From positions 3,658,337 through 3,722,336 of the forward strand of contig NZ_CP075169.1 of assembly GCF_016865525.2 (NCBI RefSeq): a stretch of DNA of 64,000 bases, written 5' to 3'. A model generated the notes under the pieces. That model ran no database searches, was not told the origin of the DNA, and saw nothing but the letters and a program-made list of their open reading frames with translations. Of the stretch, positions 7,035-35,149 are shown piece after piece; position 1 is the first letter of the stretch; each line of letters opens with the position of its first letter. The DNA is from Sodalis ligni (GTDB taxonomy: Bacteria; Pseudomonadota; Gammaproteobacteria; Enterobacterales; Enterobacteriaceae). The translations under genes and the position numbers were made by a program.

Positions 7035-7865
7035 TTAAAGGCTCTCCGGCGCACTATCCTGGCTGAAGAACTCGCGGTAGATACTCTGGCGCAGCGCCGT
7101 GAAATGTGCGCCGGCGCGGTCTCTGGGCCGCGGTAAATCCACTGAAACAATGCGCTTGATGGTCCCCGGCCGCGGCGACATGATGACAATGCGGTCGGCC
7201 AGGAAAAGGGCTTCGTCGATATCGTGGGTCACCAGGATCATGGTGGTGCGCTGCGTCTGCCAGATCCGCAACAGCTCCTGCTGCATGCGGATCCTGGTTA
7301 GCGCGTCCAGCGCGCCGAACGGCTCGTCCAGCAACAGCAGTTGCGGACGGCTCGCCAGCGCGCGGGCGATGGCCACCCGCTGCGCCATCCCCCCCGAGAG
7401 CTGATGGGGATAGCTTTGCTCGAAGCCCGGCAGTCCGACGAGGTCAATATAGTGCGCAACCAGCGCGCTGCGTTCATTCGCGGGCAGATCGCGGATGCCG
7501 AACTCCACATTCTTCGCCACCGTTAGCCAAGGCAGCAGCCGATGCTCCTGGAACACCAGTCCGCGGTCTCGCCCCGGTCCGGCAATGGGGTTCTCCCCCA
7601 GCGTCACTCTACCGCGGTATCCGCGCTCCAGTCCGGCAATGATGCGCAGCAAGGTGGTCTTGCCGCATCCGCTGCCCCCCACCACGCAGGTGAACTCTCC
7701 CGGCGTAATGTGCAGGTTGATGTCATCCAATGCCAGCAATTCTCCCTCGTCCGGACCGAACGCCCCAAACTTCTTGGTCACCCCCCGGATTTCCAGGGGC
7801 AGGCTCTGGATGTCAAACGCACCGTTACCTACATTGCCCATGCTATTCTCCACGCCGATGCTCAT
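7035..7865 (-). CDS. ssuB: Aliphatic-sulfonate-type ABC transporter ATP-binding protein
   Basis: This ATPase subunit of an SsuABC/TauABC-type importer has Walker A 'GGSGCGKTTLLRII', signature 'LSGGMAQRVAIARALA', Walker B 'LLLLDEPFGALD' and the H-loop 'TMILVTHDIDEAL'. I place the start at the ATG at 7865, which overlaps the permease stop (TGATG), giving 276 residues; longer frames extend into the permease gene and lack family similarity. It is the last gene of the transporter operon (binding protein, permease, ATPase). The substrate class, organosulfur, is inferred from the flavin monooxygenases and SsuA-like proteins nearby; nitrate/taurine-type relatives cannot be excluded. Confidence 0.88.
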   Translation of the reverse strand: MSIGVENSMGNVGNGAFDIQSLPLEIRGVTKKFGAFGPDEGELLALDDINLHITPGEFTCVVGGSGCGKTTLLRIIAGLERGYRGRVTLGENPIAGPGRDRGLVFQEHRLLPWLTVAKNVEFGIRDLPANERSALVAHYIDLVGLPGFEQSYPHQLSGGMAQRVAIARALASRPQLLLLDEPFGALDALTRIRMQQELLRIWQTQRTTMILVTHDIDEALFLADRIVIMSPRPGTIKRIVSVDLPRPRDRAGAHFTALRQSIYREFFSQDSAPESL

Positions 7866-8701
7866 CACCGGGTTTTGTAACTCAGCAGCCTGCGCCCGGC
7901 CATTTCCAGCAGGAAATCCGATATTTTCCCCAGTATGGCAAACAGAATCACGCTGGCCAGAATCACCGACGCGCGTCCGGTCATCTGCCCGTCGATCATC
8001 AAAAAGCCAAGTCCGCGGCTGGCACCCATCATTTCGGCCGCCACCACAAACATCCATGCCAGCCCCAACCCGCTGCGCAGCCCGACGATGTATTCCGGCA
8101 GCACCGCCGGCAAAATCACCCGCCGGATCATCTGCAACCCGCTCAGCCGGTAAATTTTGCCGACCTCCAACAGCTTCGGGTCCACCTGGCTCATTCCGCT
8201 GGAAAGATTCAGATAGACCGGAAAAAATGCGCCCAGGGAGATAAGCCCGATCTTCGATGATTCATCGATGCCGAGCCACAGCAAAAACAGCGGCACCCAC
8301 GCCATGGAGGGGATGTTGCGTAACGATTGCAGCAACGGATCCAGCAACCGGCGGGCCGGCGCGACGTATCCTGTAAGCCCCCCCAGCAGCGTGCCCACCG
8401 CCGCCCCCAGCAGAAAGCCGGTGATAATGCGCCATAGCGTAATCGCCGTATGCCGCCACAGATCCCCGCTCAGGCCCAGGTCCAAAATAGTTTGCCCAAC
8501 CACCGTAGGCGCCGGCAAGGTATTCGGCGGCAGCACGCCCGCACGGGCCAGCGCCTCCCACAGCACCAGTCCGGCGGCCGGGACAATCAGGCCGACGAAT
8601 TGATTACCGCGGGGCTGTTTTTTCCGGCGGACCGGATGCGTTGTCTGTTCGCGTAATGCCGGAAGCCGCGTCACGGCCTGGTTTTGCTCTACGGTACTCA
8701 T
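7865..8701 (-). CDS. ssuC: Aliphatic-sulfonate-type ABC transporter permease
   Basis: The 278-residue BPD-transport-1 permease has about six hydrophobic helices. It carries the family segment 'LRNIPSMAWVPLFLLWLGI' and the ATPase-contact EAA loop around 'EVGKIYRLSGLQMIRRVILP'. The N-terminus is a basic cytoplasmic tail ('RRKKQPRGNQ'). It lies 8 bp after the binding-protein gene and is coupled to the ATPase gene through an overlapping stop/start. It should form the inner-membrane channel of the importer. Confidence 0.9.
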   Translation of the reverse strand: MSTVEQNQAVTRLPALREQTTHPVRRKKQPRGNQFVGLIVPAAGLVLWEALARAGVLPPNTLPAPTVVGQTILDLGLSGDLWRHTAITLWRIITGFLLGAAVGTLLGGLTGYVAPARRLLDPLLQSLRNIPSMAWVPLFLLWLGIDESSKIGLISLGAFFPVYLNLSSGMSQVDPKLLEVGKIYRLSGLQMIRRVILPAVLPEYIVGLRSGLGLAWMFVVAAEMMGASRGLGFLMIDGQMTGRASVILASVILFAILGKISDFLLEMAGRRLLSYKTR

Positions 8702-8709
8702 AGGGTTTC

Positions 8710-9699
8710 CTATTTGGCTGCGATGACTTGATGAACATACTGCGGATCGATAAGATCGTTAACCGTGGCATTCACATCGGTTGAACCGCTGATAACGCCG
8801 CTCTTCTTCAGTACGTCTCCGCTGGCGGCAATCACTTTCTTTTGCTCATCCCCCAGCGTCGAACTGCCCAGGTCTGTCCGTTCCAGCACTTTAGCGGCAA
8901 TCGCATCGCTGATTTTCGCGTCCCGCACGAACAGCGCGCGAAACTCCGCCGGATTTTGTATCGCCCATAACCGCGCCTTCTCATAGGCCGCCAATACCCG
9001 GGCGACATAGGCCGGATACTCCTTGGCAAACGCCTCGCGCACGTTCAGCACGCCATAGCTGTTGAGCGCCACGTCGCGATGGAACAGCCTGGATCCATTC
9101 TCCACTTCCGCTTGCGCCATCAGCGGATCGAGTCCCGCCCATGCGTCCACGTCGCCGCGTTCCAGTGCGTTCTTGCCATCGGGGTGCTGCAACGGCACCA
9201 GTTCGATATCCTTTTCCGTCAGGCCGACCTGGTCGAGGGAGCGCAGCAGGAACACATAAGGATCGGTACCGCGCGTGACGGCCACTTTTTTGCCCTTCAA
9301 GTCTTCCACCTTGGTAATCGGGCTGTCCTTGCGCACCACCAGCGCCGTCCACTCCGGGCGCGAATAGACATAAATGGTTTTGATGGGGTTGCCGTTTGAT
9401 TTCCCAATAAAGGCCGCCACGCCGGCGGTGGATCCGAAATCAACGCTCTTGCTGTTCAGCAGTTCCAGACTTTTGTTGCTTCCCTGGCTCAGTGTCCACT
9501 CCACGGAAATACCGTCTTTAGCGAGTGAGTCCTCCAGGAAATGCTTGTCTTTCAGCACCAAGCTCACCGGGTTGTAATAGGCGTAATCCAGCTTGATAAC
9601 TTGCGGCTTTGTTTCGGCTTCCTTTTTGCAAGCGGTAAGCGAACTCAAACCCATAGTCATAAGAATCGCTACCATAACGGCTCGTGAACGTACCTTCAC
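8710..9699 (-). CDS. ssuA: Sulfonate-type ABC transporter substrate-binding lipoprotein
   Basis: The start chosen is GTG at 9699, 6 bp after GGGAG, giving 329 residues; an upstream ATG at 9738 has no ribosome site. The N-terminus 'VKVRSRAVMVAILMTMGLSS' is a signal peptide ending in the lipobox L-T-A-C, so the protein is probably a lipoprotein. The rest follows the SsuA/TauA fold: 'VDFGSTAGVAAFIGKSNG', 'DLKGKKVAVTRGTDPYVFLL' and 'LERGDVDAWAGLDPLMAQAE'. It is the first gene of the transporter operon. Its sequence differs clearly from the second SsuA-like protein at 20787-21770, so the two probably bind different ligands. Confidence 0.88.
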   Translation of the reverse strand: MKVRSRAVMVAILMTMGLSSLTACKKEAETKPQVIKLDYAYYNPVSLVLKDKHFLEDSLAKDGISVEWTLSQGSNKSLELLNSKSVDFGSTAGVAAFIGKSNGNPIKTIYVYSRPEWTALVVRKDSPITKVEDLKGKKVAVTRGTDPYVFLLRSLDQVGLTEKDIELVPLQHPDGKNALERGDVDAWAGLDPLMAQAEVENGSRLFHRDVALNSYGVLNVREAFAKEYPAYVARVLAAYEKARLWAIQNPAEFRALFVRDAKISDAIAAKVLERTDLGSSTLGDEQKKVIAASGDVLKKSGVISGSTDVNATVNDLIDPQYVHQVIAAK

Positions 9700-9745
9700 T
9701 GTGTTCTCCCTTAAATCGTCAATGAAAATACCCGTCATACTTCAC

Positions 9746-11239: not shown

Positions 11240-12478
11240 CTAAGCCGGTACGGGTTTATCCGGTCCGTTGCCGATTTGCCAGATAAAGGTCGGCTCATGC
11301 CCGTTAATCAGATAGTCCCCCACGATACGCGCTTTATAGATCACCGGATTATGGGATGACAGGGTGCGCGCATTGCGCCAATGCCTGTCCAGCGCCTTTG
11401 CCGCCCGCGTATCCGACGCACCCAGCGCGTTAAACAGCTCGCCGGCGGCACGCTGCACCCACTGCGTGGCGATAACCTGGGCCTTGTCGGCATCGACTTC
11501 CGCCAGGATATTGGCCTGGCGCTCTTGCTGCCCGTCGCCGCTGAAATGAGCCTCATAAGCCTGCTGCAAGGAGTCGGCGGCGCGCAATACGGTGGCCTCC
11601 ACCGCAAAGGCCCAGGCGCCTATTTGCCCGACCACCTGCTGAATCTGCGCATCATCGCGGGCAAAATCCGCGTTGCCGTGGCTGTAGATGCGCCGGCGGC
11701 TGCGTACGCCCTGCGCCACATCGCGCTGTACGGCCCGGCCGATACCCGCCAGCGTCGCCAGCAGCACATGTTGATAAAACGCGGTTTGGTAGCGAAAGCG
11801 GTCGGCAAAATCATAAACATGTTCCGGCGCCACCTGCGCATGATGAAAACGGGTGGTGCCGCTGCCGGTGGTACGCTGGCCGAAGCCATCCCAATCATCT
11901 TCCCGCAGCACCCCCGCCTGGTGGGTGCCCACCAGGGCAATCACACTGCCTCCGGTGTCCGAACGCTGCGCGAATACGTCAATCCAGTCGGCAAACAGCG
12001 CGCCGGTGCTGTAGAACTTCTCCCCGTCCAGCCGCCAGCCTTGTTCAGACGGCGTGACCTTGGTCTTCACTTCACCGAGTTTTACCTCGCCGATCTCCGT
12101 CCAGCCGCTGCCGACGATATCTCCGTCGATAAAACGGCGAAACCACTGTTCGCGTTCAGGGGAATCAGGTGCGTTCAGCCGGTCTTCCACAAAGGCTATA
12201 TGCGCCCGCAATGCCTGCGGCAGATTGGAATCCGCCTCCGCCAGCTCAATCAATAACTGAAACAGCTGTGGCAGTGAGGCCCCGTAACCGCCCTGTTCTT
12301 TAGGGATGCGCAGCGTGCCGAACCCCGCCTCCTTCAGCCAGCGAATCGGTTCCGTGGGCAACGAACGCGTGCTTTCGCGGTCGATAGCGCCCGCGGCGAT
12401 TTTGCTGAAGATCGGTCTGAACCGCGCGGCAAGCTGTGCGTAATCCGTTCCCTTGGAAATCAAATGCTTATCTGTCAT
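11240..12478 (-). CDS. SfnB/DszC-like flavin monooxygenase (acyl-CoA dehydrogenase fold)
   Basis: The 412-residue protein has the acyl-CoA dehydrogenase fold: an N-terminal helical part ('LKEAGFGTLRIPKEQGGYGASLPQLFQLL'), a beta domain ('DIVGSGWTEIGEVKLGEVKT') and a C-terminal helical part ('RAAGELFNALGASDTRAAKALDRHWRNART'). The last motif is typical of the SfnB and DszC monooxygenases that use reduced flavin to oxidise sulfur compounds. The start codon overlaps the stop of the MFS gene (ATGA), so they are co-translated. It needs reduced FMN from a reductase that is not in the window. It probably oxidises the compound carried by the MFS protein. Confidence 0.8.
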   Translation of the reverse strand: MTDKHLISKGTDYAQLAARFRPIFSKIAAGAIDRESTRSLPTEPIRWLKEAGFGTLRIPKEQGGYGASLPQLFQLLIELAEADSNLPQALRAHIAFVEDRLNAPDSPEREQWFRRFIDGDIVGSGWTEIGEVKLGEVKTKVTPSEQGWRLDGEKFYSTGALFADWIDVFAQRSDTGGSVIALVGTHQAGVLREDDWDGFGQRTTGSGTTRFHHAQVAPEHVYDFADRFRYQTAFYQHVLLATLAGIGRAVQRDVAQGVRSRRRIYSHGNADFARDDAQIQQVVGQIGAWAFAVEATVLRAADSLQQAYEAHFSGDGQQERQANILAEVDADKAQVIATQWVQRAAGELFNALGASDTRAAKALDRHWRNARTLSSHNPVIYKARIVGDYLINGHEPTFIWQIGNGPDKPVPA

Positions 12479-13935
12479 GGTGCCTCCGTAACCTCGTCGT
12501 GGTCGTCAATGTCCTGACGGGTGGGCTCATGGCGCACCGCCAGCAGGAAAATAATCGGCAAAATGGCGCACAGGGACACAACCCAGAACATATCGGTGCC
12601 GAGACCGGCCTTGAGGATGGGCAGGATAAACAGCGCCAACGCGCTGCCGATACCGGAAAGCGAGCGGCTAAAACCGACGCCGGTGGCGCGTATTGAGGTG
12701 GGATAAGAGAGCGCCGGATAGATCATCAGCTGCGCGCCGGGGCCGAAGCCTTCGGCAAACAGCCATAGCCCGAGCATCAATATCGCAAAAACGATGCCGA
12801 CCGTTGCCTGCGGATGACCAATCAGGGCCAATGCAATCAGCGCGATGAACTGCAGGGCAAAACCGGCGATCGCCACATGGCGCGACGGGTATTTCCAGGC
12901 CAAACGCATACCGAGCAGACCGCCGGTAAAGGCAAACAGCGCGTTGAGTCCCAGGGACGCCGAAATGGTTTCGAATACCCCGGCCCCAAGGAACTGCGCC
13001 AGGATAGACGGCAGGAAGAAGGCAATCGCGGTGTATTCAAAAGAAATGCAGACATTCATCACTCCGGCAACGATGGTCCGTTCACGATAGGGCTTTTCAA
13101 ACAGTATCCGAAAGCTGACCCTGGCCGGTTTTATCGCCTTGTGCGCCGGCGTTTCCACCGCCACCTCATGGGCCTGAATACCATAAGAATCCCGCAGGAT
13201 GCGTACCGCGCCCGTCAAGTCGCCCTGATTGGCGGCCCACAGCGGTGATTCATTCATAAACTTGCGGCGCACGGCGATAATCAACAGCGCCGGCACCGCG
13301 CCAAACAATAACGACGCGCGCCATAGCCAATCGATATGCTCTTTCGGCAGCAGGAAATAGAAGCCGAAAATGATAAAAAAGCACACCGATGAGGCGGCGT
13401 ACCACATTGGGCACCAGGCGGCAAGCCGGGCCGCTTTATTGCCCTTGCCGGCGAATTTCGAAAATTCGGCCATGTAGGCCATGGCCACCGGCAAATCAAT
13501 GCCGACACCGATCCCCATCAGGAAACGCGCGCCGATTAATACCCAGACGTTCGGCGCCAGTCCCGCGGCAATGGCCGAGACTACGAAAAACAGCATATCG
13601 GCCATGAAAATCGAATAGCGGCCATACCGGTCGGTAAGCCAACCGCCCACCAGATTGCCGATGATGGTGCCGATCATAATGGATGAGGTGACCAGCCCGG
13701 TCAGGGCCGGCGTCAGGCTGAAATCCCTCACCACATCATCTATACCGTAAGAAAGGGTGGTAAGATCGTAGGCATCGAGAAATACCCCGCCCAGCGCCAG
13801 AAATACAATCATACGCGCATAGCTGCTATTATCGCTGCGGGTATTAATCAGCCGTGCCACATCGCTGACCGAGCCTACCGGCGACGATGGAAACGCCGCT
13901 TCGGGGGAAAGATCATCTATATTTATCGCACTCAT
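12475..13935 (-). CDS. MFS transporter (AAHS/sugar-porter type)
   Basis: The 486-residue protein has about twelve hydrophobic helices. It carries MFS motif A 'WLTDRYGRYSI' and the first-helix segment 'LALGGVFLDAYDLTTLSYGI', typical of metabolite:H+ symporters for organic acids. The central loop and both termini are charged. A GAGG site lies just before the ATG. It is translationally coupled to the SfnB-like monooxygenase and sits among organosulfur genes, so it may take up a sulfur-containing organic acid; the ligand is not determinable from sequence. Confidence 0.85.
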   Translation of the reverse strand: MSAINIDDLSPEAAFPSSPVGSVSDVARLINTRSDNSSYARMIVFLALGGVFLDAYDLTTLSYGIDDVVRDFSLTPALTGLVTSSIMIGTIIGNLVGGWLTDRYGRYSIFMADMLFFVVSAIAAGLAPNVWVLIGARFLMGIGVGIDLPVAMAYMAEFSKFAGKGNKAARLAAWCPMWYAASSVCFFIIFGFYFLLPKEHIDWLWRASLLFGAVPALLIIAVRRKFMNESPLWAANQGDLTGAVRILRDSYGIQAHEVAVETPAHKAIKPARVSFRILFEKPYRERTIVAGVMNVCISFEYTAIAFFLPSILAQFLGAGVFETISASLGLNALFAFTGGLLGMRLAWKYPSRHVAIAGFALQFIALIALALIGHPQATVGIVFAILMLGLWLFAEGFGPGAQLMIYPALSYPTSIRATGVGFSRSLSGIGSALALFILPILKAGLGTDMFWVVSLCAILPIIFLLAVRHEPTRQDIDDHDEVTEAP

Positions 13936-14205: not shown

Positions 14206-15636
14206 TCAACCATGGCGTCCGTCCCCCAGCCTGTCGGCAGCGAGGCCATCCGCGGCCGCTACGGGACCGGTGTGACGATAGCCCGCCGCCGGATGAGGGG
14301 CATACAGGCGTGGACCCTGCCGGAACAGTTTTTCCCGCAGCGTGCCGGCGGCGTAGTCGCGCTTGTAGACCCCGCGCTTTTGCAGTTCCGGGATCAGATG
14401 CTCCACCACATCGCTAAAGCTCTCGTGCGTCACGGCATAGGCCAGATTAAAACCGTCGACATCGGTTTCTTCGACCCAGGACTGCAATTCGTCCGCCACC
14501 GTCTGCCCGCTGCCCACCAGCAGGGGGCCGAACCCCCCGATGCCCACCCAGTCCGCCAGCCCCTGTACCGTCCATTGCCGGTGCGGATCGGCGGTGGAGA
14601 AGGTTTCCACCGCGGACTGAATGGCATTGGTATGCAGGTGTTTTAGCACTTGCTCTGGTTGATATTGGCCAAAATCAATGCCGGTCCAGCCGGAAATCAG
14701 CGCCAGAGCGCCCTCATAACTGACATAGGATTTATACTCATTCCACTTCGCCTGCGCCTGCCGGTCGGTTTGGTCAACGATGGCGGTCTGTAGATTGAAA
14801 ATCAGGATGCCCCGGGGATCGCGGCCGGCTTCGGCGGCGCGGCGGCGAATATCCGCCACGGTTTTTTTCAGTAATACTTTAGAGGGAGCGGCGACAAACA
14901 CGCATTCGGCGTGTTCGGCGGCAAACTGTTTACCCCGGCTGGACGCACCCGCTTGATACAGCACCGGCGTGCGCTGCGGCGAAGGCTCGCACAGGTGGAT
15001 TCCCGGCACCTGGAAGAACGTTCCCTGGTGGTTGATGGGATGGATTTTGGCCGGATCGCTGAAGATGCGCCGCTCGCGGTCGCGCAGCACGGCGCCCTCT
15101 TCCCAACTCCCCTCCAGCAGCTTATAAATTACCTGCAGATATTCGTCGGCATAGTCATAGCGGGCATCATGGTCGGTTTGCGCCCGCTGGCCGATATTGC
15201 GCGCGCCGCTCTCCAAATATGACGTCACGATATTCCAGCCGATGCGTCCCTTGGTCAAATGATCCAGCGTCGACAGCCGACGCGCAAATGGATAAGGATG
15301 CTCGAACGAGAGCGAAGCCGTCAGGCCGAAGCCCAGGTGTTCGGTGACCAGCGCCATGGGCGTGATCAATGCCAGCGGATCGTTGACCGGCACCTGAGTG
15401 GCCTGGCGTATAGCCGCATCGCCGTTGCCGTTCAGCACGTCATAGACGCCCAGCACATCGGCGATAAACAGGCCGTCGAATTTTCCCCGCTCCAGCAGGC
15501 GCGCCAAATCGACCCAATACTCAAGGTCTTTGTATTGCCAGGAGCGGTCGCGGGGGTGGGCCCATAAACCCGGCGACTGGTGGCCGACGCAGTTCATATC
15601 AAACGCGTTCAGGCGAATTTCTCGTTGCGATGGCAT
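14206..15636 (-). CDS. NtaA/SnaA/DszA-family FMN-dependent monooxygenase
   Basis: The ATG at 15636 (after GGAG) gives 476 residues, about the family length. The bacterial-luciferase-like TIM barrel is shown by 'KFDGLFIADVLGVYDVLNG', 'FEHPYPFARRLSTLDHLTKG' and 'RIGWNIVTSYLESGARNIG', with 'PVLYQAGASSRGKQFAAEHA' later. Members oxidise nitrilotriacetate, pristinamycin or dibenzothiophene sulfone with FMNH2 supplied by a separate reductase. Next to SsuD and SfnB-like genes, oxidation of an organosulfur compound is the likely role. It is the third gene after ssuD and a FAD protein. Confidence 0.85.
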   Translation of the reverse strand: MPSQREIRLNAFDMNCVGHQSPGLWAHPRDRSWQYKDLEYWVDLARLLERGKFDGLFIADVLGVYDVLNGNGDAAIRQATQVPVNDPLALITPMALVTEHLGFGLTASLSFEHPYPFARRLSTLDHLTKGRIGWNIVTSYLESGARNIGQRAQTDHDARYDYADEYLQVIYKLLEGSWEEGAVLRDRERRIFSDPAKIHPINHQGTFFQVPGIHLCEPSPQRTPVLYQAGASSRGKQFAAEHAECVFVAAPSKVLLKKTVADIRRRAAEAGRDPRGILIFNLQTAIVDQTDRQAQAKWNEYKSYVSYEGALALISGWTGIDFGQYQPEQVLKHLHTNAIQSAVETFSTADPHRQWTVQGLADWVGIGGFGPLLVGSGQTVADELQSWVEETDVDGFNLAYAVTHESFSDVVEHLIPELQKRGVYKRDYAAGTLREKLFRQGPRLYAPHPAAGYRHTGPVAAADGLAADRLGDGRHG

Positions 15637-15739
15637 ACTATTATATTCTCCAGGGTTGCAATCCCCTCGTCCAGGCAGGGCCGGCGGGGTCATAATTATC
15701 GGATAGCCAAAAAGCAGGCCCGGGTTTTAACTGCCAAAA

Positions 15740-17173
15740 CTAACGCCGACAAAGGGGACATCGCCCGTCGAGGGCGGGTGAGGTCAACAGGGCAAGCAGC
15801 TGGGTGGCAAGGGCCTGGGCATGTTCCGCCACCTGCGGCAAGCCGATCAGTTCGCCAAAACGACCACGCGCCGCCGGCCCCGCCACCAGCAGGCGCGGGT
15901 CGGCCAGGCCGTCGCTGCCGATGGCCTGGCTGTCTGCGTTCACCCACAGCCCCAGCCCCAAGGGATCCGCAACAATAAGGCCCTGTCCGGCCAGCGCGCG
16001 CAGCAGCGGAAGGCTATTGATCAGCGACCCGTGGGCCGGCCCGGTGGAAATGATGACCTTCTGGGCCACCACGCGCTCGGCGCCGCCCTGCCGAAGGGCC
16101 AGTTGCAAGGTAAGATCTTTTTCGCCGCCAGCAATTTTGTCCAGCCGGGCGGCCAGCACGCGCAACGTGCCGTTATCACGCCGTTGCCGCAGCAAGGCGC
16201 TGACCTGCGGCGCGATGCGATACCGATGGACATCCCAATAGGGGCGCAGATGGCGTAAGAACCGCCGCTGTTCCACCGGCGGCAATCGCTGCCAGAGCGT
16301 CTGCCCGTTGGCGCGCACGTCGTCGATGACCTTTTGCCAGGGGACCCCGGCATCAGCGGCGGCAACGACGGTCCGACGTATCCGGCGCAGCCAGCGGCGC
16401 ACGGTTTCAGGGGCGGCAAGGGGCGGCTCAACCGGCCAGGACGGATAGTCGCCGGTAACATTTGGACGCGGCAGCAGGCCGCGGCGCGAAAAGGCGGTAA
16501 TTTGGCCGCGATGTCCGCGCAATTGCAGCGAGGCCGCCACATCGGCCATGGTCAATCCAGTGCCGATAATCACCAGCTCATCCCGGGTTCCTATCGCCGC
16601 CAGCGCATTGTCCTGCCAGGGATTGGCGATCAATGCCGGATGTTGTCCCACCTCCTTTGAAATCTGCGATGGCAGCGCCGGCGGCGGGTGACTTATGGCC
16701 AGTACCGTGGCGTCGGCATGGATCCGCACGCCGCCGGCGGTGGTGACAATCGCTCCCCCAGGCACTGGTTGCAGGCTTATGGCCCGATCGCGCAGGTGAT
16801 GCAGGTTAAGGCGGCTGGCGGCGGCGGTTTCGCTAAAGCGCTCGGCGATGTAACGGCCAAACGCGCCGCGCTGCGGATACAGGCTGCCATCACGCCACAG
16901 TGCCTCGGGATCCCGCGGCAGCTCATCACCGGCGCGGCACCATCGGTCAAAATCCCCCTCTTCGGCGGCGGAAAGCTGCATTTTATCCGCCGGCACATTG
17001 ATGCGATGGGCCGGATCACGGGTGGAATATGCCACGCCGCAGCCCAACATAGCGCGCGGTTCGATAACAGTGACATCCCCGGCCAGCCGTCCCTGGCGTC
17101 CCAGATGGATAGCCAGCGCGGTGCCGGTAAAACCGCCGCCGATAATAACGATATGCGGATGGACGGCCATCAT
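15740..17173 (-). CDS. FAD/NAD(P)-binding protein (COG4529-like)
   Basis: The 477-residue protein opens with an FAD Rossmann motif ('[20 protein letters not shown]'), has a central second nucleotide-binding motif ('[18 protein letters not shown]') and a C-terminal '[25 protein letters not shown]'. It fits the FAD-NAD(P)-binding family found with organosulfur and amino-acid monooxygenases, whose reaction is mostly undetermined. Its ATG overlaps the ssuD stop (ATGA). It might oxidise a sulfur intermediate or serve as an electron carrier to the FMN enzymes, but no flavin-reductase motif was recognised. Confidence 0.8.
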
Positions 17174-18342
17174 GAACCCTTGCCGGTCTTGCCGGGACGT
17201 TTGTCCCCACCGATGGTTTCGCCGAAGGGGCCGGTGTTGACGCCGCGCACGTCATGAAGCGCGTGCGGTGCCAGGGGCAGCAGCGGCATGACCAGTTCGG
17301 CGAAACGATGCGCCTCTTCCAAAGGGGGATCCCCTGACAGTACGAAATTTTTAACCCCCGGCGCCTGGTACTCACGGATGCGTTCGGCCCCCTGCTGCGG
17401 ACTGCCCACCAGCGCGGTGCCCGCCCCGCCGCGCACCAGGCCGACGCCAGCCCAGAGATTGGGACCTATGCGCAGGTCGTCGCGCGATCCGCCGTGCAAA
17501 GCGCTCATGCGCCGCTGACCGGTGGAGTCCATGCGGGCGAAAATTTTCTGCGCGCCGGCAATGGTGTCATCGTCCAGATGGCTGATAAGCCGGTCGGCGG
17601 CGGCCCAGGCCTCCTGCTCCGTTTCCCGCACGATAACATGCAGCCGGATGCCATAGTTCAAGGTGCGCCCCCGCTGTTCGGCTCGCCGTCGCACCTCGGC
17701 CAGCTTTTCCGCTACCTGCCCGACCGGTTCGCCCCAGGTCAGGTAGGTATCAATCTGTCCGGCCGCCACCTCAATCGCCTCGGGGGAGGAGCCGCCGAAA
17801 AACAGCGCCGGACCGTCGGGCTGAACCGGCGGGAATAAAAAATCAGCGCCTTCGACATGAATATGTTTACCGTTGAAATCCACCTTTTCGCCCTTCAGCA
17901 GACGCTGGTAAACCGTCAGGAATTCATGGGTCACCTCGTAACGCTCGGCGTGGCTCAGGAAGATCCCGTCGCCTTTGTTTTCCACCGGATCGCCGCCGGT
18001 CACCACGTTAATCAGCAATCGCCCCTCGGAGAGACGATCGAGCGTCGCCGTCATCCGTGCCGCGAGGCTTGGCGGTTGCAGGCCCGGACGCACCGCCACC
18101 AGATAACGCAGGCGGCGGGTAATGGGCGCCAGGGCGGCGGCGATAAGCCATGAATCCTCGCAGCTTTTGCCGGTGGGGATCAGTACGCCGTAATAACCCA
18201 GGTTGTCCGCCGCCAGCGCCACCTGCTGGAGATAAGCTAAATCCACCGGCCTACCGCCCTCGGTGGTGCCCAGGTAGCGTCCGTCGCCATGGGTGGGCAA
18301 AAACCAGAATACGTTTATTTCATCGCTGCTTGGCTGGCTCAT
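17170..18342 (-). CDS. ssuD: FMNH2-dependent alkanesulfonate monooxygenase
   Basis: The 390-residue protein closely matches E. coli SsuD (381): '[15 protein letters not shown]' at the start, '[13 protein letters not shown]' with the conserved Cys, '[18 protein letters not shown]', '[10 protein letters not shown]', 'DTYLTWGEP' and the Arg-bearing loop '[12 protein letters not shown]'. It cleaves the C-S bond of sulfonates, releasing sulfite and an aldehyde. The oxygenation uses FMNH2 from a partner such as SsuE or MsuE, which is absent here. It is the first gene of an operon with the FAD protein and the DszA-like enzyme, read divergently from the sigma-54 activator and preceded by a sigma-54 promoter. 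Confidence 0.92.
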
Positions 18343-18411
18343 TATGCAATCCCTATATAACTATATTCGTAATTTATCGAAAGCCGATTAGCCTTTGGTT
18401 ATAAAAGAGAT

Positions 18412-18427
18412 AGCACAAGGCATGCCA
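18412..18427 (-). promoter_or_regulatory. Sigma-54 (-24/-12) promoter of the ssuD operon
   Basis: Read on the minus strand the site is TGGCATGCCTTGTGCT, fitting TGGCAC-N5-TTGCW with exactly ten bases between GG and GC. The predicted transcript would start about 59 bp before the ssuD ATG. The divergent gene encodes a GAFTGA-type sigma-54 activator, and a long inverted repeat lies 60-120 bp upstream of this site. Confidence 0.7.
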
Positions 18428-18484: not shown

Positions 18485-18545
18485 CCCCGCTGCTGCCTAT
18501 GCAACACGACGGGGTCGAAGATTGCTGCATTGGCAGCAGCGGGCT
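18485..18545. promoter_or_regulatory. Inverted repeat, likely activator binding sites (UAS)
   Basis: Two facing copies of a roughly 20-bp element, G(C/T)TGCAT(T/A)GGCAGCAGCGGG, lie about 10 bp apart; the first is on the minus strand and the second on the plus strand. Position, 60-120 bp upstream of the -24 element, is where sigma-54 activators usually bind. The arms could also form an RNA hairpin in the leader of the activator gene. Confidence 0.5.
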
Positions 18546-18653: not shown

Positions 18654-20573
18654 ATGCCGCATCCGCAACCCGCGTTTTCTCCCGCCGCCCCCGACCTTAT
18701 CGACCCGGCGTCGCAAGCGCTGCAAAGCGTGCTTGATCGCCTCGCGCCGACGGAGGCAACCGTGCTTATCGTCGGCGAAACCGGGACCGGTAAAGAGGTG
18801 GTGGCTCGTTACCTGCATCACCATAGCCTGCGTAGCCATCGGCCTTTTCTGGCGGTCAACTGCGGCGCGCTGACCGAAAGCCTGGCGGAGTCGGAATTGT
18901 TCGGCCATGAAAAAGGGGCGTTCACCGGCGCGGTGAGCGGCCATCAGGGATGGTTCGAGGCGGCCGGGGGCGGTACATTGCTGTTGGATGAAATCGGTGA
19001 GTTGAGCCTGCCCTTGCAGGTTAAACTGCTGCGCGTACTGCAAGAGCGCGAGATAACCCGCGTCGGTTCACGCAAACCCATTAAAATCGATGTGCGGGTC
19101 ATCGCCGCCACGCATGTGGACCTGGCCAATGCCATTCGTGAACGGCAGTTTCGCGAAGATTTGTACTATCGGCTGAATGTCGCGGCCGTAACCCTGCCGC
19201 CGCTGCGCCGGCGTCCGGAGGATATCCCGGTGCTGGCCGGTCATTTCCTGCGGCTGTATGCCCGGCGTTTGGGCCGTCCCGAACCTCGGCTGGCGCCGGA
19301 AACTCTGCAAATGCTGCTGGCCCATCCCTGGCCGGGCAACGTGCGCGAACTGGAAAACACCCTGCATAACGCGGTGCTGCTCAGCAAGGGCGCGCTTATC
19401 ATGCCGCAACAGCTGAGGCTCAATGAGCACATCAGCCACAACAACATAGATAGCGGCCACGATCGCGATTTGGAACAGTTCATTCGCCGGCAGCTGCGTA
19501 AAGAACCGGCCCGGCTGTTCGATCGCCTGGTGACGACGCTGGTGAAAAGCGCCCTGGAGCTTAACGGTGGCAACCAAATCCAGACCGCCGCCCTGCTGGG
19601 TATCAGCCGTAACTCACTGCGCACCCATCTGGCGCATATCGGTCTGGTCAAACCACGGCGCAAAGAAACATCGCTAGCCGTCCGGGGCGTTACTACCGCC
19701 GCCCCGCCCCCCGACCGGGAGATTCGCATCGGTTACCAGAAGTACGGCAACCTTGGGATCCTGAAGGCGCGCCAGAGCCTTGAACAGCTTTTCGCGGCCC
19801 AGGACGTCAACGTGCTCTGGAGCGAATTCCCCGCGGGACCACAATTATTGCATGCCCTGGCCAGCGATGAAATTGACTTCGGCACCACCGGAGAAGTCCC
19901 GCCGATCTTTGCCCAGGCACAGGGTTCATCGCTGGTCTATATCGCCTATGAACCCCCGGCGCCCCAGAGCGTGGCGATGGTGGTGCCCGCTGACAGCCCT
20001 ATCCGCGGCGGCACGGATTTGAAAGGAAAACGTATTGCGGTAAATAAAGGTTCAAATGTCCATTACCTGTTGATTCAAATACTGGAAGAGCATGGGCTGT
20101 CAATGGACGATGTGCGCATTGTCTATGCCCCGCCTAAATATCCGCTTACCCAAACTGATGTTACGTCGGTGGACGCCTGGATGATGTGGGATCCGTTATT
20201 AAGCGATGCCCAGGGTTCAGGAAATATGCGGGTGGTTGCCGACGGCACGCATCTGGTGCTTAATCAGCAATTCTATTTGGCACGCCGGCAATTTGCGGAA
20301 CAATCTGGTGATATCGTGCAGCAGATAATCCAATTATTGCAGCAAACCGGCCGGTATATTGCCGCGTCGCCGGGAGAAGCGGCGCAGTATTTATCCATTG
20401 AGCTGGGACTGCCCCCCGCCTCCCTGGAAGTCGCGCTGTCGCGCTGCAGCCACGAAACGCGCGCCATTGATGCCCGCGTTATCCGCGAGCAGCAAAAAAT
20501 CGCCGACAGGTTCTACGCGCTGGGCCTGATCCCCAAGGCTATATTCGTTCGCAATGCGGTATGGCTGCCTTGA
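18654..20573 (+). CDS. Sigma-54 activator fused to an SsuA/TauA-like binding domain
   Basis: The 639-residue protein opens almost directly with the AAA+ domain (about 15-245): Walker A 'GETGTGKE', the sigma-54 contact loop 'GAFTGA', Walker B '[11 protein letters not shown]', arginine finger region '[11 protein letters not shown]'. A Fis-type helix-turn-helix follows (about 290-340, '[20 protein letters not shown]'). Residues about 360-639 are a complete sulfonate-binding-protein domain: '[19 protein letters not shown]', '[19 protein letters not shown]', '[11 protein letters not shown]', clearly related to the neighbouring SsuA-like protein but without a signal peptide. With no N-terminal sensor domain, this C-terminal part is the obvious ligand sensor. 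The start is the ATG with GGAG upstream (18654). It is divergent from ssuD. Confidence 0.92.
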
Positions 20574-20786: not shown

Positions 20787-21770
20787 TTATTGGCCGGCGT
20801 GAGTATTTTTATCCTGCGACCAGCGCGCCTGGTTGACGTCGATTTTCGTTGGGATCAGGCCGATGCCGGTAAAGGTATCCGCCAGCGTCTGCTGCTGGCG
20901 GAATACATCGTCAGTCATGCGTTCGGTGCCAAAAGGCATCCGCGCCAGCGCCCGCAGCCATATCGGCTGCGGCAGACCGGTACTTTTGGACAGGGTTTGC
21001 GCCACCTCGTCATGATGATCGTTGGCCCAGGTACTCAATTGGGCCAACTGCTCAACGACCAGTTTGGCGATGTCGGGATGGTCTTCGGCAAACCGCCGGC
21101 TGGCGAGATAGAATGTGTAGTGTGGCACTATGCCCTCGGCATCCTGGAGCCGGCGCGCGCCGGCGTTGGTTTCAACCTCGGCGTAAAACGGGTCCCAAAT
21201 CACCCAGGCATCAACGCTGCCGCGTTGGAATGCCGCCCGCGCATCGCTGGGCGTCAGGTAAACCGGCGTAATATCGCTATAGGCCAAGCCGGCCTTTTTC
21301 AGCGCTTCGACCAGCAAATAATTCACATCGGAGCCTTTATTCAGCGCCACCCGCTTGCCTTTAAGATCCGCCACGCTCCGCACCGCTGAATCTTTCGGCA
21401 GCAGGATCGCTTCGGTTTTCGGATTGGGAATATTGTGCGCCAGATAAATCAAATCGGCCTTGGCCGCCTGGGCGAAAGCCGGCGGGGCATCGCCGGTGGC
21501 GGCCAGATCGATACTGCCGACGTTTAGGCCCTCGAGCATTTGCGGACCGGCGGTAAACTCGGTCCAATGGGTGGCGATACCTTGCTTTTTAAGCGCTTCG
21601 TCCAGCGTACCGCGGGCTTTAAGCAACGCGAGAATATTGGCTTTTTGGAAACCGATATTCAGCTGCTTGAGGGGTTGCCCCTCGGCCAGCGCCTGACTAA
21701 ACAGGCCCATGGCAAGCAAAGCGATCGTCAAGCGCAGGGCGCGTCGCGCCAAAGAATATCCATAGGTCAT
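20787..21770 (-). CDS. SsuA/TauA-like aliphatic sulfonate-binding protein
   Basis: The 327-residue periplasmic protein has a signal peptide ending near 'ALLAMGLFSQALAEG'. It is a full SsuA-family binding protein: 'LNIGFQKANILALLKARGTL', 'SIDLAATGDAPPAFAQAAKA', 'DLKGKRVALNKGSDVNYLLV' and 'QRGSVDAWVIWDPFYAEVET'. It aligns along its length with the C-terminal domain of the sigma-54 activator, which ends 214 bp away on the opposite strand, and is probably the source or a sister of that domain. No permease or ATPase adjoins it, so it may deliver ligand to the SsuBC pair at 7035-8701. Confidence 0.88.
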   Translation of the reverse strand: MTYGYSLARRALRLTIALLAMGLFSQALAEGQPLKQLNIGFQKANILALLKARGTLDEALKKQGIATHWTEFTAGPQMLEGLNVGSIDLAATGDAPPAFAQAAKADLIYLAHNIPNPKTEAILLPKDSAVRSVADLKGKRVALNKGSDVNYLLVEALKKAGLAYSDITPVYLTPSDARAAFQRGSVDAWVIWDPFYAEVETNAGARRLQDAEGIVPHYTFYLASRRFAEDHPDIAKLVVEQLAQLSTWANDHHDEVAQTLSKSTGLPQPIWLRALARMPFGTERMTDDVFRQQQTLADTFTGIGLIPTKIDVNQARWSQDKNTHAGQ

Positions 21771-26823: not shown

Positions 26824-28181
26824 CTAAGCGCTCTTGCTAATAGCTGTGGTAAAGATTTTTTCCAATAAGGTCAACGCCCCTCGATAACCGATATAGCTCT
26901 TATTCAGGACAACTTCATAGGAGGCCGGAAATCCCACCTCCACGATATATCCCTGCAATTCCTTTGCCGTATCGCGCTCCCAGGTGGTACCGAAAAGAAT
27001 CGGCGGCTTATGTCCAAAATCCACAGAGTGCAACGTCTTCCCCACCAGGTAGCCGTCTTCGATAAAGGCCACATCCGAACGTACATCGTCGGCCAGGTGT
27101 TCATACTCAGAGGCGATTTGCGCCCGGTATTTTTCCGGTACATTATCCGTAATGATTTGTTTGCCCGGAATCAGCCCCAGCTGATTGACCAGGAATTTAT
27201 TGAGCGCCAGATTATAGGCGCTATCACCGACGACGGCATAGGATGCCGGCAGCCCCCACCAGTATTCGGCATAAAAATCGGTAAAGGACTCCAGATAATA
27301 ATAATATTGCTCATCTTCATGCCGTATAAATTCTTCTGATTGTTGCTTATCAATGCCCGCGAATTCCACCACCTGGCGCAGGAATTCCGCCGACTGGCCG
27401 GCGCCGATGGGTAAAATCGGGATATGCAGATAAGGCTGTTGATATTTTTTCTTCAAGTGTATCGCCGTCTGCAGTCCCAACCAAGGCGAAACCACCAGGT
27501 TAAACTGGGCGTTTGGGATGGTTTTCCATTCTTCCACACCGGCGGACCCGTTGCCAAAAAGAATATTTACCCTGAATCCGGCCCCCTGCAAAATACGCTT
27601 TAGTTCTTGTAAATCCCCGCGCCAAAACGTATTTTGGAAAGGCAGCTCCGCCCAAACGTTGATAAGTCCCTTGATTTTTTTATCTTTATTTACGGCATAT
27701 TTATCAACGTATTGATCAATAATGGCCTCCGTAACGATTTCATGCCCGATGAAATTGTTACCCTTAAAGCCTCCGGTTTCAGCATACACAATCGGTACGC
27801 CTTGATCCTGGAATTTGCTCACCACTGAAGCGACATCATCGCCGACGATTTCACCTATGCAGCCGTTCAGCACCACAAACAAATCCCCTTCCATCATCTT
27901 CAGGGTGGCTTTGATAAGATTATCCAGGCGTTCGGCCCCGCCGAAAATGACCTCGTTCTCCCGTAAATTGGTGCTAGGGGCAACGGCGCCGCCGGCATAG
28001 CCGCCGCCCTGGAACCCGTTGTAAAACTCAGGGCCATGTATTGTTTATCCACGCATCCCGGGCCGCAATGGGCAATGGGAATAGCACCCGGAATCGCCTC
28101 TACCGAATGCATGGCGCCGAGCGCACAGCCATAACGCACCTGACTGATTGAATTTGTCTGCTCGCATATAATATCCACCAT
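26824..28181 (-). pseudogene. marK: Nitrogenase-like beta subunit, methylthio-alkane reductase MarK (one frame break)
   Basis: The gene encodes about 452 residues, starting at ATG 28181 after AGAGGA. Nitrogenase component-1 P-cluster cysteines are in place: Cys19 ('VRYGCALGA'), Cys43 ('HCGPGCVDKQ') and Cys108 ('LNGCIGEIVGDD'), with 'EVIFGGAERLDNLIKAT' between. The frame breaks once, in the A-run at 28023-28026 (T-run on the coding strand); one more T rejoins 'ALSF' to 'YNGFQGGGYAGG' exactly, so a sequencing error is likely. It lies last in a marH-marD-marK order. The pairing with O-acetylhomoserine sulfhydrylase identifies the group as methylthio-alkane reductase rather than N2-fixing nitrogenase. 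Confidence 0.8.
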
Positions 28182-28204
28182 CACTACATTCCTCTAATCG
28201 TCAA

Positions 28205-29716
28205 TTAATTCCGGATGCCGCGCCAAGATATAGGGTCTTTTGGTCCAACCACCATTTTTATAAGGCAGCTTGACATGTTTTTAATATCGTCATGAAACTT
28301 CTTATGCGCCAGAATATCCAGAATGGATTCACCCAGATTAATGATCCCTTGATAGCCGATGGCGATATGCTCGTCCCCCAGCGGAGCCGCCGGAATACCC
28401 AAACGCGAGGCCAAAGGCGCCAGTCCGTTATGACGAATCAACAGAAAATCCGGTTTGACCTGTTGCAGAAAACCATAGAGCTGGTACTGCTGGCGGTTGC
28501 TGACCTGGAAATGTTTTACATCGCCATAATTTTTGGTCAAATGTCCCAGGGAATCTTCCCTGACATCTCCGCTGTCATAGACCGGATCATGATGAAATAC
28601 CAACGAACCATCCACCTGGACGCCCAGTTCCCGCAAGACCTGAATCAGCGCGTGTGAATAAGCGGAACCGGTCGCCACGTATCCCTTGATACCCTTGAGT
28701 TTTTCCTTTAGTTCCGCTATGCGTGGGGCGACGCGCGCATGCTCGGATGCAATGTATTTTTCCGCCAGCGCTTCTCTGTGCGTGACCTTGCCGATTTCCC
28801 TAAGCCAGGCATCCGTACCGACAAAACCATACGGCATAGGCGCTTTGATTTCCGGTACGCCGAAATGCTGTTCCAGCGCCGCGGCCATATAGGAAGACAG
28901 CGTATAGCAAAAACCCACCGTGGCGGCGGCTGACGACAATTGCGCTAAATCGTCAACCGAAGCTAAATCAATGACATAATTGACGCGCAGATTGAGGTTG
29001 GCCAGCATCGGCGTAAAAACATCCGACCCCCAGAGGTTAATGACATTGATCAAATCCTCCTGCTTTTGCGGATTACGCTTGACGATCTGGCGCAAGATGC
29101 CATGCTGCACCGCATCAAACCCGGTACTCCAATGCTTGGAACGGAAACCTTCGCACGCCAGCGGTATCACCGGAATGCTGTATTGCTCTTCCTTTTCTTT
29201 GGCAACGCTTTCCATATCCTCGCCGATAATGCCGGTGGCGCAGGAAGAGGAAAGAAACACCGCTTTGGGCTGATAGCGCGCCACCGCGTCATCTATGGAC
29301 TGCCGCAGTTTATCCGATGCGCCGAAGACCAAATCATTTTCCAGCAAGTTGGTGGTGATACAGTGGATGTTCTCAACCGGGTGCCCGCGCATGGCCAGTC
29401 CGTTGCGGTAGATTGAATTATAGGGAACCTGACCCGCCCCGCAGCCGATAGGCGCATGCTGAATGAGCACCGCATCGCGCACATGTCCCGCCTGGCATTC
29501 AACCATCTGCTCACTGCACACCGAACCCTGGGTAAACGGCCCTTCTAATTCGCATAATTGACAGCCGCCCTTCCCCGGACCGCCGCCACAGCCCCTCGCC
29601 TCGAAATTGGATTGTTTATGCAGCTCACTGGCGGTGCCCGACCAGGCAATAATTGTTCCCAACCGCTGCTCGCGATTTTCAACTTCCGCAATGTCTAAAT
29701 TAATCTTCTTGGGCAT
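28205..29716 (-). CDS. marD: Nitrogenase-like alpha subunit, methylthio-alkane reductase MarD
   Basis: The 503-residue protein is a nitrogenase component-1 homologue. Cys67, Cys92 ('HAPIGCGAGQVPYN') and Cys159 ('SSSCATGIIGED') match the P-cluster ligands by motif and spacing. A Cys in 'VGFCYTLSSYMAAALEQHFG' and a His in 'GDEHIAIGYQG' sit where NifD holds its cofactor. An additional N-terminal cysteine group ('CGGGPGKGGCQLCE') is not in NifD. Methylthio-alkane reductase reductively cleaves C-S bonds (dimethyl sulfide, 2-methylthioethanol) to methanethiol and a hydrocarbon, anaerobically. AGAGGA precedes the ATG. No nifENB genes are in the window. Confidence 0.85.
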   Translation of the reverse strand: MPKKINLDIAEVENREQRLGTIIAWSGTASELHKQSNFEARGCGGGPGKGGCQLCELEGPFTQGSVCSEQMVECQAGHVRDAVLIQHAPIGCGAGQVPYNSIYRNGLAMRGHPVENIHCITTNLLENDLVFGASDKLRQSIDDAVARYQPKAVFLSSSCATGIIGEDMESVAKEKEEQYSIPVIPLACEGFRSKHWSTGFDAVQHGILRQIVKRNPQKQEDLINVINLWGSDVFTPMLANLNLRVNYVIDLASVDDLAQLSSAAATVGFCYTLSSYMAAALEQHFGVPEIKAPMPYGFVGTDAWLREIGKVTHREALAEKYIASEHARVAPRIAELKEKLKGIKGYVATGSAYSHALIQVLRELGVQVDGSLVFHHDPVYDSGDVREDSLGHLTKNYGDVKHFQVSNRQQYQLYGFLQQVKPDFLLIRHNGLAPLASRLGIPAAPLGDEHIAIGYQGIINLGESILDILAHKKFHDDIKNMSSCLIKMVVGPKDPISWRGIRN

Positions 29717-29805
29717 ACCGAGTCCTCTCTTAAATTCTCTGTTTATAAGCTATATAAGCGAACGGTCCTTGGTCGCGCCAGCCGGCCACGGTAGGATTAC
29801 CAGCG

Positions 29806-32381
<2,576 letters not shown>

Positions 32382-32394
32382 CCTGGCTATCTCT

Positions 32395-33456
32395 ATGACA
32401 TTGCAACATTTTCACTCCGCTGCGTCCTTTGTCCTGGAGAACGGTTCCGTTCTCCAGGATATTGATATCGCTTTTCACACCTATGGTACGCTGAATGCCG
32501 ATAGATCCAATGTGGTATGGATTTGTCACGCCCTGACAGGCAGTTCGGATGTTATCTCCTGGTGGCCCGGCCTGGTGGGCAAGGGGAAATGTTTTGATCC
32601 CGGTCGCTGGTTCATTGTCTGCGCCAATGTGCCCGGCTCGCCTTATGGCTCAACCAGCCCGCGGAGCCTCAACCCGGCCACCCATCAGCCTTATCTACAG
32701 GATTTTCCGGCCATAACCATTCGGGATATGGTTTTTGCGCACAGCCTGCTCGCCGATGCGCTGGGGATAGCGAATATACATTTACTGATTGGCGGTTCCA
32801 TGGGCGGCCAACAGGCGCTGGAATGGGCCATTCATGAGCCTCGGCGAATAAGCCGGTTGGTGCTTCTGGCCACCAATGCCGTTTGTTCTCCCTGGGGAAT
32901 TGCTTTCAATGAAAGCCAGCGGCTGGCGTTGCTGGCAGATAAAACCTTTGACGGCGTCGACCCCAACGGCGGCATGGCCGGACTGAAGGCAGCCCGAAGT
33001 ATTGCCCTGCTGTCCTATCGTTGTTTCGATACCTACCAGCACACCCAGGCAGAAAGCGACCGGCATAAACAAGACCGTTTTCTGGCCGCCGCCTATCAAC
33101 GTCATCAAGGGGAAAAATTCATCCGGCGATTTAACGCCTATTGTTACTGGTGCCTGCTTAACGCGCTCGATAGCCATAATATCGGCCGCCAGAGAGATAA
33201 ACCGGAAGCCATGCTGGCTAAAATAACGGCCAGAACGCTGATTATCGGCATCACTTCCGATCTGCTGTTTCCGATCAGGGAACAGCAATATCTGTCTAGA
33301 CATATCAAAAGTGCTCAATATGCGGAAATTGATTCCCTTTATGGACATGATGGTTTTCTGACCGAAGCGCCAGCGCTGGAAAAACATCTTTTCCCGTTTT
33401 TATATGGGCAAGAGATTAAGCCGGAAAAGAAAATAGCGGCTATGACGAGGCGTTAA
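32395..33456 (+). CDS. metX: Homoserine O-acetyltransferase (alpha/beta hydrolase type)
   Basis: The 353-residue protein has the MetX alpha/beta-hydrolase core: 'WICHALTGSSD' (oxyanion region), 'NVPGSPYGSTSPRSLNP', the nucleophile elbow 'LLIGGSMGGQQALEWA', the Asp strand 'TLIIGITSDLLFP' and the final 'GHDGFLTE' His. It acetylates homoserine with acetyl-CoA, supplying MetY. Enterobacteria normally use MetA and O-succinylhomoserine, so this gene gives the cell a separate acetyl route. Some serine O-acetyltransferases of this fold are close, but the adjacent metY favours homoserine. Confidence 0.87.
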   Translation: MTLQHFHSAASFVLENGSVLQDIDIAFHTYGTLNADRSNVVWICHALTGSSDVISWWPGLVGKGKCFDPGRWFIVCANVPGSPYGSTSPRSLNPATHQPYLQDFPAITIRDMVFAHSLLADALGIANIHLLIGGSMGGQQALEWAIHEPRRISRLVLLATNAVCSPWGIAFNESQRLALLADKTFDGVDPNGGMAGLKAARSIALLSYRCFDTYQHTQAESDRHKQDRFLAAAYQRHQGEKFIRRFNAYCYWCLLNALDSHNIGRQRDKPEAMLAKITARTLIIGITSDLLFPIREQQYLSRHIKSAQYAEIDSLYGHDGFLTEAPALEKHLFPFLYGQEIKPEKKIAAMTRR

Positions 33457-33488
33457 AGCCCGAAAACGTAAGCAGCAGGAGAATCATC

Positions 33489-35072: not shown

Positions 35073-35149
35073 TGATGCCTTTTTACGTTGGCTCGATGCG
35101 CATATATCGGCGCATTCCCTTTCAAGCAAGATGAATATCGATAGTTGCC

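Follow-up and report, generated by a model that had tools for sequence, protein, structure and literature searches.

The window, a 64,000-nucleotide stretch of Sodalis ligni DNA (contig NZ_CP075169.1, positions 3,658,337 to 3,722,336), encodes a regulator that joins, within a single protein of 639 amino acids, a sigma-54 AAA+ domain, a Fis-type helix-turn-helix (HTH), a disordered linker and a complete SsuA-fold substrate-binding domain (SBD), in that order. We consider it fairly probable that this protein is a ligand-gated bacterial enhancer-binding protein for sulfonate use whose C-terminal sensor derives from a transporter. The strongest evidence for its function is the circuit in which it lies, i.e., a promoter, paired sites and a target operon starting with ssuD; neither this circuit nor the spread of the family was part of the first-pass annotation of this DNA. 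The features on which the reading depends are the following.

18654..20573, plus strand: fusion regulator (sigma-54 activator and SsuA-like domain), 639 amino acids, from open reading frame translation and homologues.
18708..19421, plus strand: sigma-54 activation domain of AAA+ type together with its lid (residues 19-256), carrying the Walker A and B, GAFTGA, arginine-finger and sensor II motifs.
19506..19649, plus strand: Fis-type HTH region, residues ~285-332 (HTH_8 at 298-323; helices in the predicted model).
19650..19706, plus strand: linker leading from HTH to SBD (residues 333-351), for which disorder is predicted (predicted local distance difference test score, pLDDT, <50).
19707..20570, plus strand: SsuA-like SBD, residues 352-639.
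18412..18427, minus strand: sigma-54 -24/-12 promoter TGGCATGCCTTGTGCT, facing ssuD, 71 bp from the ssuD start codon (motif scan).
18491..18506, unstranded: enhancer-like palindrome 1, TGCTGCCTATGCAACA (gap alignment, pattern scan).
18523..18538, unstranded: enhancer-like palindrome 2, TGCTGCATTGGCAGCA, 32 bp from palindrome 1 (gap alignment, pattern scan).
17170..18342, minus strand: ssuD, alkanesulfonate monooxygenase dependent on reduced flavin mononucleotide (FMNH2), first gene of the inferred target operon (TIGR03565, 587.8 bits, cut-off 518.2).

Domain searches and the predicted model bore out the layout of AAA+ domain, Fis HTH and complete SsuA-like domain that had been proposed at first pass. 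Walker A, Walker B and the GAFTGA loop are present and form conserved columns across the fusions, structure comparison matched the AAA+ part to FlrC, NtrC1 and PspF, and the HTH scored 27.2 bits against an HTH_8 cut-off of 22. The AAA+ domain begins at residue 19 and an N-terminal regulatory domain is absent; the SBD sits behind both AAA+ and HTH, which supports the C-terminal sensor position claimed earlier. The claim that the SBD lacks a signal peptide also held: judged by eye from sequence and model, no export signal precedes it, with the HTH and linker lying directly before it. The SBD scored above the cut-off of TIGR01728 (SsuA family), and the structural comparison that had been suggested gave the SsuA fold, both in support of an origin from a periplasmic SsuA-type binding protein. 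A TauA-type sensor was considered and rejected, since the NCBIfam match above cut-off was SsuA_fam and the predicted fold is nearer SsuA than TauA.

The regulator is predicted with high confidence to be the local sigma-54 activator of the ssuD operon, because ssuD is divergent from it, the -24/-12 promoter is conserved and paired palindromes are present at fusion gaps. Beyond the window we compared 46 loci (six named ones and 40 from the 46 fusion genomes of the window's family), and ssuD adjoined the regulator in divergent orientation in the window and in 45 of these. The exception is a damaged locus (L169 in genome G658), whose regulator gene contains a single internal TGA and next to which no ssuD was found. 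The window and the 45 loci yielded 46 ssuD-regulator gaps, two of which (L031 and L161) are identical and seemingly one record, leaving 45 distinct gaps with a median pairwise identity of 53% and 35 clusters under 75%. Despite this divergence, TGGCAY-N6-YGC was found on the ssuD-facing strand in all 46 gaps, 65-72 bp before the ssuD start codon, with T as the next letter in 43. As controls, 9200 random stretches were drawn from the same loci, of which 55 had such a site at that position, and 6.8% of letter-shuffled gaps had one anywhere on the ssuD-facing strand. The window's genome encodes rpoN.

Two 16-bp palindromes with the consensus TGYTGCA-WW-TGCARCA, spaced 31 or 32 bp apart, likewise occurred in 46 of 46 gaps, their centres lying ~72 and ~104 bp past the -24 element on the side away from ssuD. 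A nearby -24/-12 promoter with paired upstream sites, a feature of sigma-54 activators, is therefore present. Genome-wide searches are a more independent check of the palindromes than counts in the gaps. When exact matches were sought in 11 fusion genomes, all nine among the matches listed fell at the ssuD-regulator locus, and the strict paired pattern was found in 11 of 261 family genomes, once in each, all of them fusion carriers and always at the fusion gap. Specificity resides in the palindrome pair, not in single sites. In an alphaproteobacterial contig (L037) ssuD is likewise divergent, and its gap carries TGGCACGAAGATTGCT facing ssuD together with just one good palindrome-like site. Between the -12 element and the ssuD start (~18343-18412 in the window), two more blocks are conserved in most of 27 aligned gaps: TTATAACCAAA, close to the expected transcription start, which a second regulator could bind, and GTTATATAGGAAA, close to the ribosome site.

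We examined the putative ligand pocket against SsuA of Xanthomonas citri, in which, according to the part of the report consulted, Gln36, Gly68, Gly86 and Ser141 hold the sulfonate and Trp185 faces the alkane (PMC3839906). These contacts align to Q362, G395, G413, N468 and W512 of the regulator, and none of the five positions varies among the 49 fusions selected for alignment or in a comparison of 35 fusions. Loss of all ligand-contact residues had been raised at first pass as a case against sensing; instead, four of the five are identical to SsuA and the fifth is changed from Ser to Asn. The SBD likely senses a ligand, which may differ from that of SsuA. Among 96 SsuA-conserved positions, 43 keep their residue in at least 90% of the fusions and 26 in fewer than half. 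Nine of these 26 relaxed positions cluster at residues 489-501, a clustering reached in none of 5000 random draws, and we tentatively read this segment as a lost surface that would be needed only in the transporter.

The fusion is widespread in the window's family. A protein search (best 120 of 992) returned full-length homologues from genera that include Serratia, Hafnia, Brenneria, Rouxiella, Gibbsiella, Chimaeribacter, Erwinia and Acerihabitans, and at E 1e-80 or better the fusion occurred in 46 of 392 sampled family genomes, representing 20 of 154 genera. Matches spanning HTH and SBD were found in four of 394 genomes drawn from the order, all four within the family; outside it, none was found at 1e-60 in 369 class and 299 phylum genomes, a threshold that would miss divergent fusions. 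Long open frames in G1349 and G1145, tried as independent fusions outside the family, turned out to be ordinary ssuA genes; this check covered these two, and further matches start at query residue 27 (G1295) and 31 (G208). A search seeded with the L037 activator, from an alphaproteobacterial metagenome-assembled genome, returned fused relatives 49-56% identical to the window protein, one of them from Neomegalonema, so that fusions occur in many enterobacteria and in partly alphaproteobacterial sequences. Among the 120 proteins listed from this search, 82 measure 612-671 amino acids, and 38 measure 320-449 and have no SBD, some of which may be shortened by contig ends. Copies also reside on plasmids: in 73 plasmid records, at least 80% of the query is matched at a single place, and Pantoea accounts for 19 of the 20 rows shown. 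Plasmid pPag1 of Pantoea vagans C9-1 carries the regulator and the ssuD gene set in the same gene order, and since the locus is found on large Pantoea plasmids, it may be mobile between strains.

Both phylogenies are most simply explained by a single capture of the SBD followed by several losses. In a tree of 56 SBD rows, one branch separated 35 fused domains from 21 SsuA (100/100 and all 200 bootstrap trees), with the enterobacterial fused domains nested within other fusions if the root is placed among SsuA; this sampling left out 17 of 34 SsuA loci (only forward-strand matches were used) and 4 of 23 non-enterobacterial fusions (cutting motif missing). In the activator tree, from which L044 was left out and in which P0175 carries the wrong fused group label, two groups of unfused proteins, 13 rows in all, branch off outside, and a further 14 unfused rows sit within the fused ones. 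L037, although labelled SfnR-like, groups with the fusions in this tree, and its contig ends before an SBD could be read. Judging from the nested unfused forms, the AAA+ core may be able to work alone; for one unfused locus (L208), no match to the window's ssu proteins other than the activator itself was found within its 16 kb. Local duplication was rejected as the source of the SBD, as the neighbouring ssuA is 39% identical and falls outside the fused group in the tree, making it a relative and not the direct parent.

Based on these findings, we propose the following working model. Dimers of the regulator would bind both gap palindromes, whose sequence and spacing are observed, via the Fis HTH, and the AAA+ ring would contact RNA polymerase-sigma-54 at the -24/-12 element and thereby switch on the divergent ssuD monooxygenase operon. 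The C-terminal SsuA-like domain would remain in the cytoplasm as the sensor. Its two lobes would close on an organosulfur anion, for which an alkanesulfonate or a pathway intermediate of the operon is the likeliest candidate, and this closure would alter either ring assembly or the pairing of the DNA sites. We lean weakly towards the SBD being a brake that ligand relieves, as the activator persists without an SBD in several related lineages. More broadly, we incline slightly to the view that the protein represents a further architectural class, in which a captured ABC (ATP-binding cassette) binding protein behind the DNA-binding domain reads an intracellular organosulfur ligand and gates the AAA+ ring, so that sulfonate desulfurisation would be induced in a substrate-specific manner beside, or in place of, starvation control by CysB/Cbl.

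Several observations weigh against this model. The palindrome consensus was derived, with 27 gaps aligned, from the same gaps in which it was counted, the strict pair was found in 11 of the ~30 fusion carriers among the 261 genomes and missed 19, and single sites with up to three mismatches were not enriched in the window (8 against 3.98 expected; 8 of 100 shuffles were as high). In the pocket, the SsuA contact Ser141 is replaced by Asn468 in 35 of 35 fusions, Asn being also found in 6 of 20 SsuA. Furthermore, the hinge glutamate, equivalent to E106 of TauA, whose E106A mutant showed no measurable taurine binding in the portion of the work consulted (PMC6906117), is V440 in the regulator. Val occupies this position in 27 of 35 fusions (16/16 enterobacterial, 11/19 others) and Glu in the remaining eight, compared with Glu in 19 and Gln in one of 20 SsuA; ligand choice or lobe closure has therefore probably drifted from that of SsuA. 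Finally, the unfused relatives (38 of the 120 listed, 320-449 amino acids) imply that the SBD is dispensable in some lineages.

The altered pocket could also suit a different anion. In an otherwise identical circuit, the SBD would then sense sulfur sufficiency through sulfite, sulfate or another small oxyanion and turn the activator off, with sulfonate not being the signal; the missing hinge Glu and the replacement of Ser by Asn could fit this, and the fold family contains nitrate and bicarbonate binders. However, recombinant X. citri SsuA reportedly binds alkanesulphonates and neither sulphate nor sulphate esters, and W512, the counterpart of the alkane-facing Trp of SsuA, is invariant, which makes this explanation unlikely. 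We give still less credence to the SBD being a passive fusion or a ligand-free docking module, e.g., for SsuD or a transporter subunit. Regulation of a transporter by a C-terminal binding-protein-like domain is known for NrtC and assumed for CmpC, and the SBD is missing in some lineages, yet the pocket has stayed invariant even in fusions that share as little as 49% identity, whereas another segment has relaxed, which would hardly be expected of a passive domain.

Control of the ssuD operon by some other sigma-54 activator, with the fusion protein acting on a distant target, appears very improbable. The genome does encode many such activators, and 19 of 31 matches besides the window gene hit the AAA+/HTH part (some being pieces of one gene), but across genomes the gap elements accompany the fusion gene, and nowhere else in the 261 genomes was the strict pair found. 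An assembly artefact that joined two genes, the other doubt voiced at first pass, has a negligible probability: we found nothing in its favour, and full-length homologues occur in many genomes and on plasmids. We thus retain the ligand-gated activator of sulfonate use as our preferred explanation.

SfnR, a Pseudomonas regulator that acts with sigma-54 in the use of dimethyl sulfone and on which studies by Endoh from 2003 and 2005 are on record (references listed in PMC8234197 and PMC13352529), resembles the fusion regulator in being a sigma-54 activator of sulfur scavenging; it is not known to have an N-terminal sensor domain or an SsuA domain. An outgroup of eight rows in the activator tree, which we take to be SfnR-like, split off with 100/100 support from the fusions and from their unfused relatives. 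SgrR and Btr are cytoplasmic transcription factors with a C-terminal solute-binding domain, but they belong to other DNA-binding and binding-protein families and are not known as sigma-54 activators. Compared with SsuA itself, the fused domain has the same fold and shares four of five contact residues, whereas it stands behind a DNA-binding protein, has no signal peptide and has lost the hinge Glu in most members.

The consulted part of a review of enhancer-binding proteins describes five groups with an N-terminal regulatory domain (response regulator, PAS/V4R/ACT or GAF), except group 4, which has none (PMC7175178). As described there, groups 1-3 and 5 (NtrC, DmpR, NorR, FlgR) share the AAA+ core with the fusion regulator, and groups 1-3 also the HTH, but their regulatory domain is N-terminal, whereas that of the fusion regulator is C-terminal and derived from a transporter. 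As group 4 also lacks an N-terminal domain, its absence does not place the regulator outside the wider family; by this description, the regulator fits none of the five groups. The best structural parallel to the fused SBD, as far as the consulted parts of the sources tell, are the cytoplasmic C-terminal domains of cyanobacterial NrtC and CmpC, which are related to NrtA and CmpA and thought to read intracellular substrate (PMC11349869, PMC6603209); these are joined to an ABC ATPase and act on transport, while the fused SBD would act on transcription. Consistent with the earlier remark that no characterised regulator of this layout was known to its author, the open-licence full-text literature, which mostly excludes subscription journals, yielded no paper on a sigma-54 activator with an SsuA-type domain among the matches listed.

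A transporter protein thus appears to have become a C-terminal cytoplasmic domain once and to have been retained in enterobacteria and alphaproteobacterial sequences, in a regulator whose target promoter and paired sites can be read from the DNA. This makes it a clean test case for a Venus-flytrap domain gating an AAA+ ring, suggests a route by which these bacteria may sense organic sulfur directly, and could allow its use as a modular biosensor.

The genes surrounding the regulator and ssuD are the following.

15740..17173, minus strand: FAD-NAD(P)-binding oxidoreductase, overlapping the end of ssuD; retained at 41 of the 46 loci.
14206..15693, minus strand: NtaA/DmoA family FMN-dependent monooxygenase (TIGR03860, 560.8 bits, cut-off 279.7); kept in 41 of 46 loci.
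12475..13935, minus strand: major facilitator superfamily (MFS) transporter; in 26 of 46 loci, some stretches ending before it.
11240..12478, minus strand: flavin oxidoreductase resembling SfnB, with 256.1 bits where the SfnB cut-off is 430.9; present at 14 of 46 loci, with many stretches stopping short of it.
7035..9738, minus strand: ABC importer with ATPase, SsuC-like permease and SsuA-family binding protein, only the latter above its NCBIfam cut-off.
20787..21770, minus strand: ssuA, convergent with the regulator (domain search, tree).

The importer at 7035..9738 is probably of the sulfonate-uptake type and a candidate member of the regulon. Elsewhere in the window's genome lies a second ssuA-ssuC-ssuB set (L209, G000:C1:2149000-2161000), whose ssuA is split over two frames and shares 56% identity with the fused domain across residues 353-496. 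The window further contains NifH/D/K-like genes at 26824-30655 (minus strand) and 31083-37567 (plus strand), H and K having been recognized by eye; the NifD-like gene scored far under the NifD and NifE cut-offs, and the H-like and K-like readings are broken across frames. They adjoin an O-acetylhomoserine sulfhydrylase, a MetX-like gene, a regulator above the NifA cut-off and a DmsA-like reductase, and the whole looks like a second organosulfur module. It may correspond to a methylthio-alkane reductase or perhaps to the isethionate enzyme on which PMC11423573 reportedly centres.
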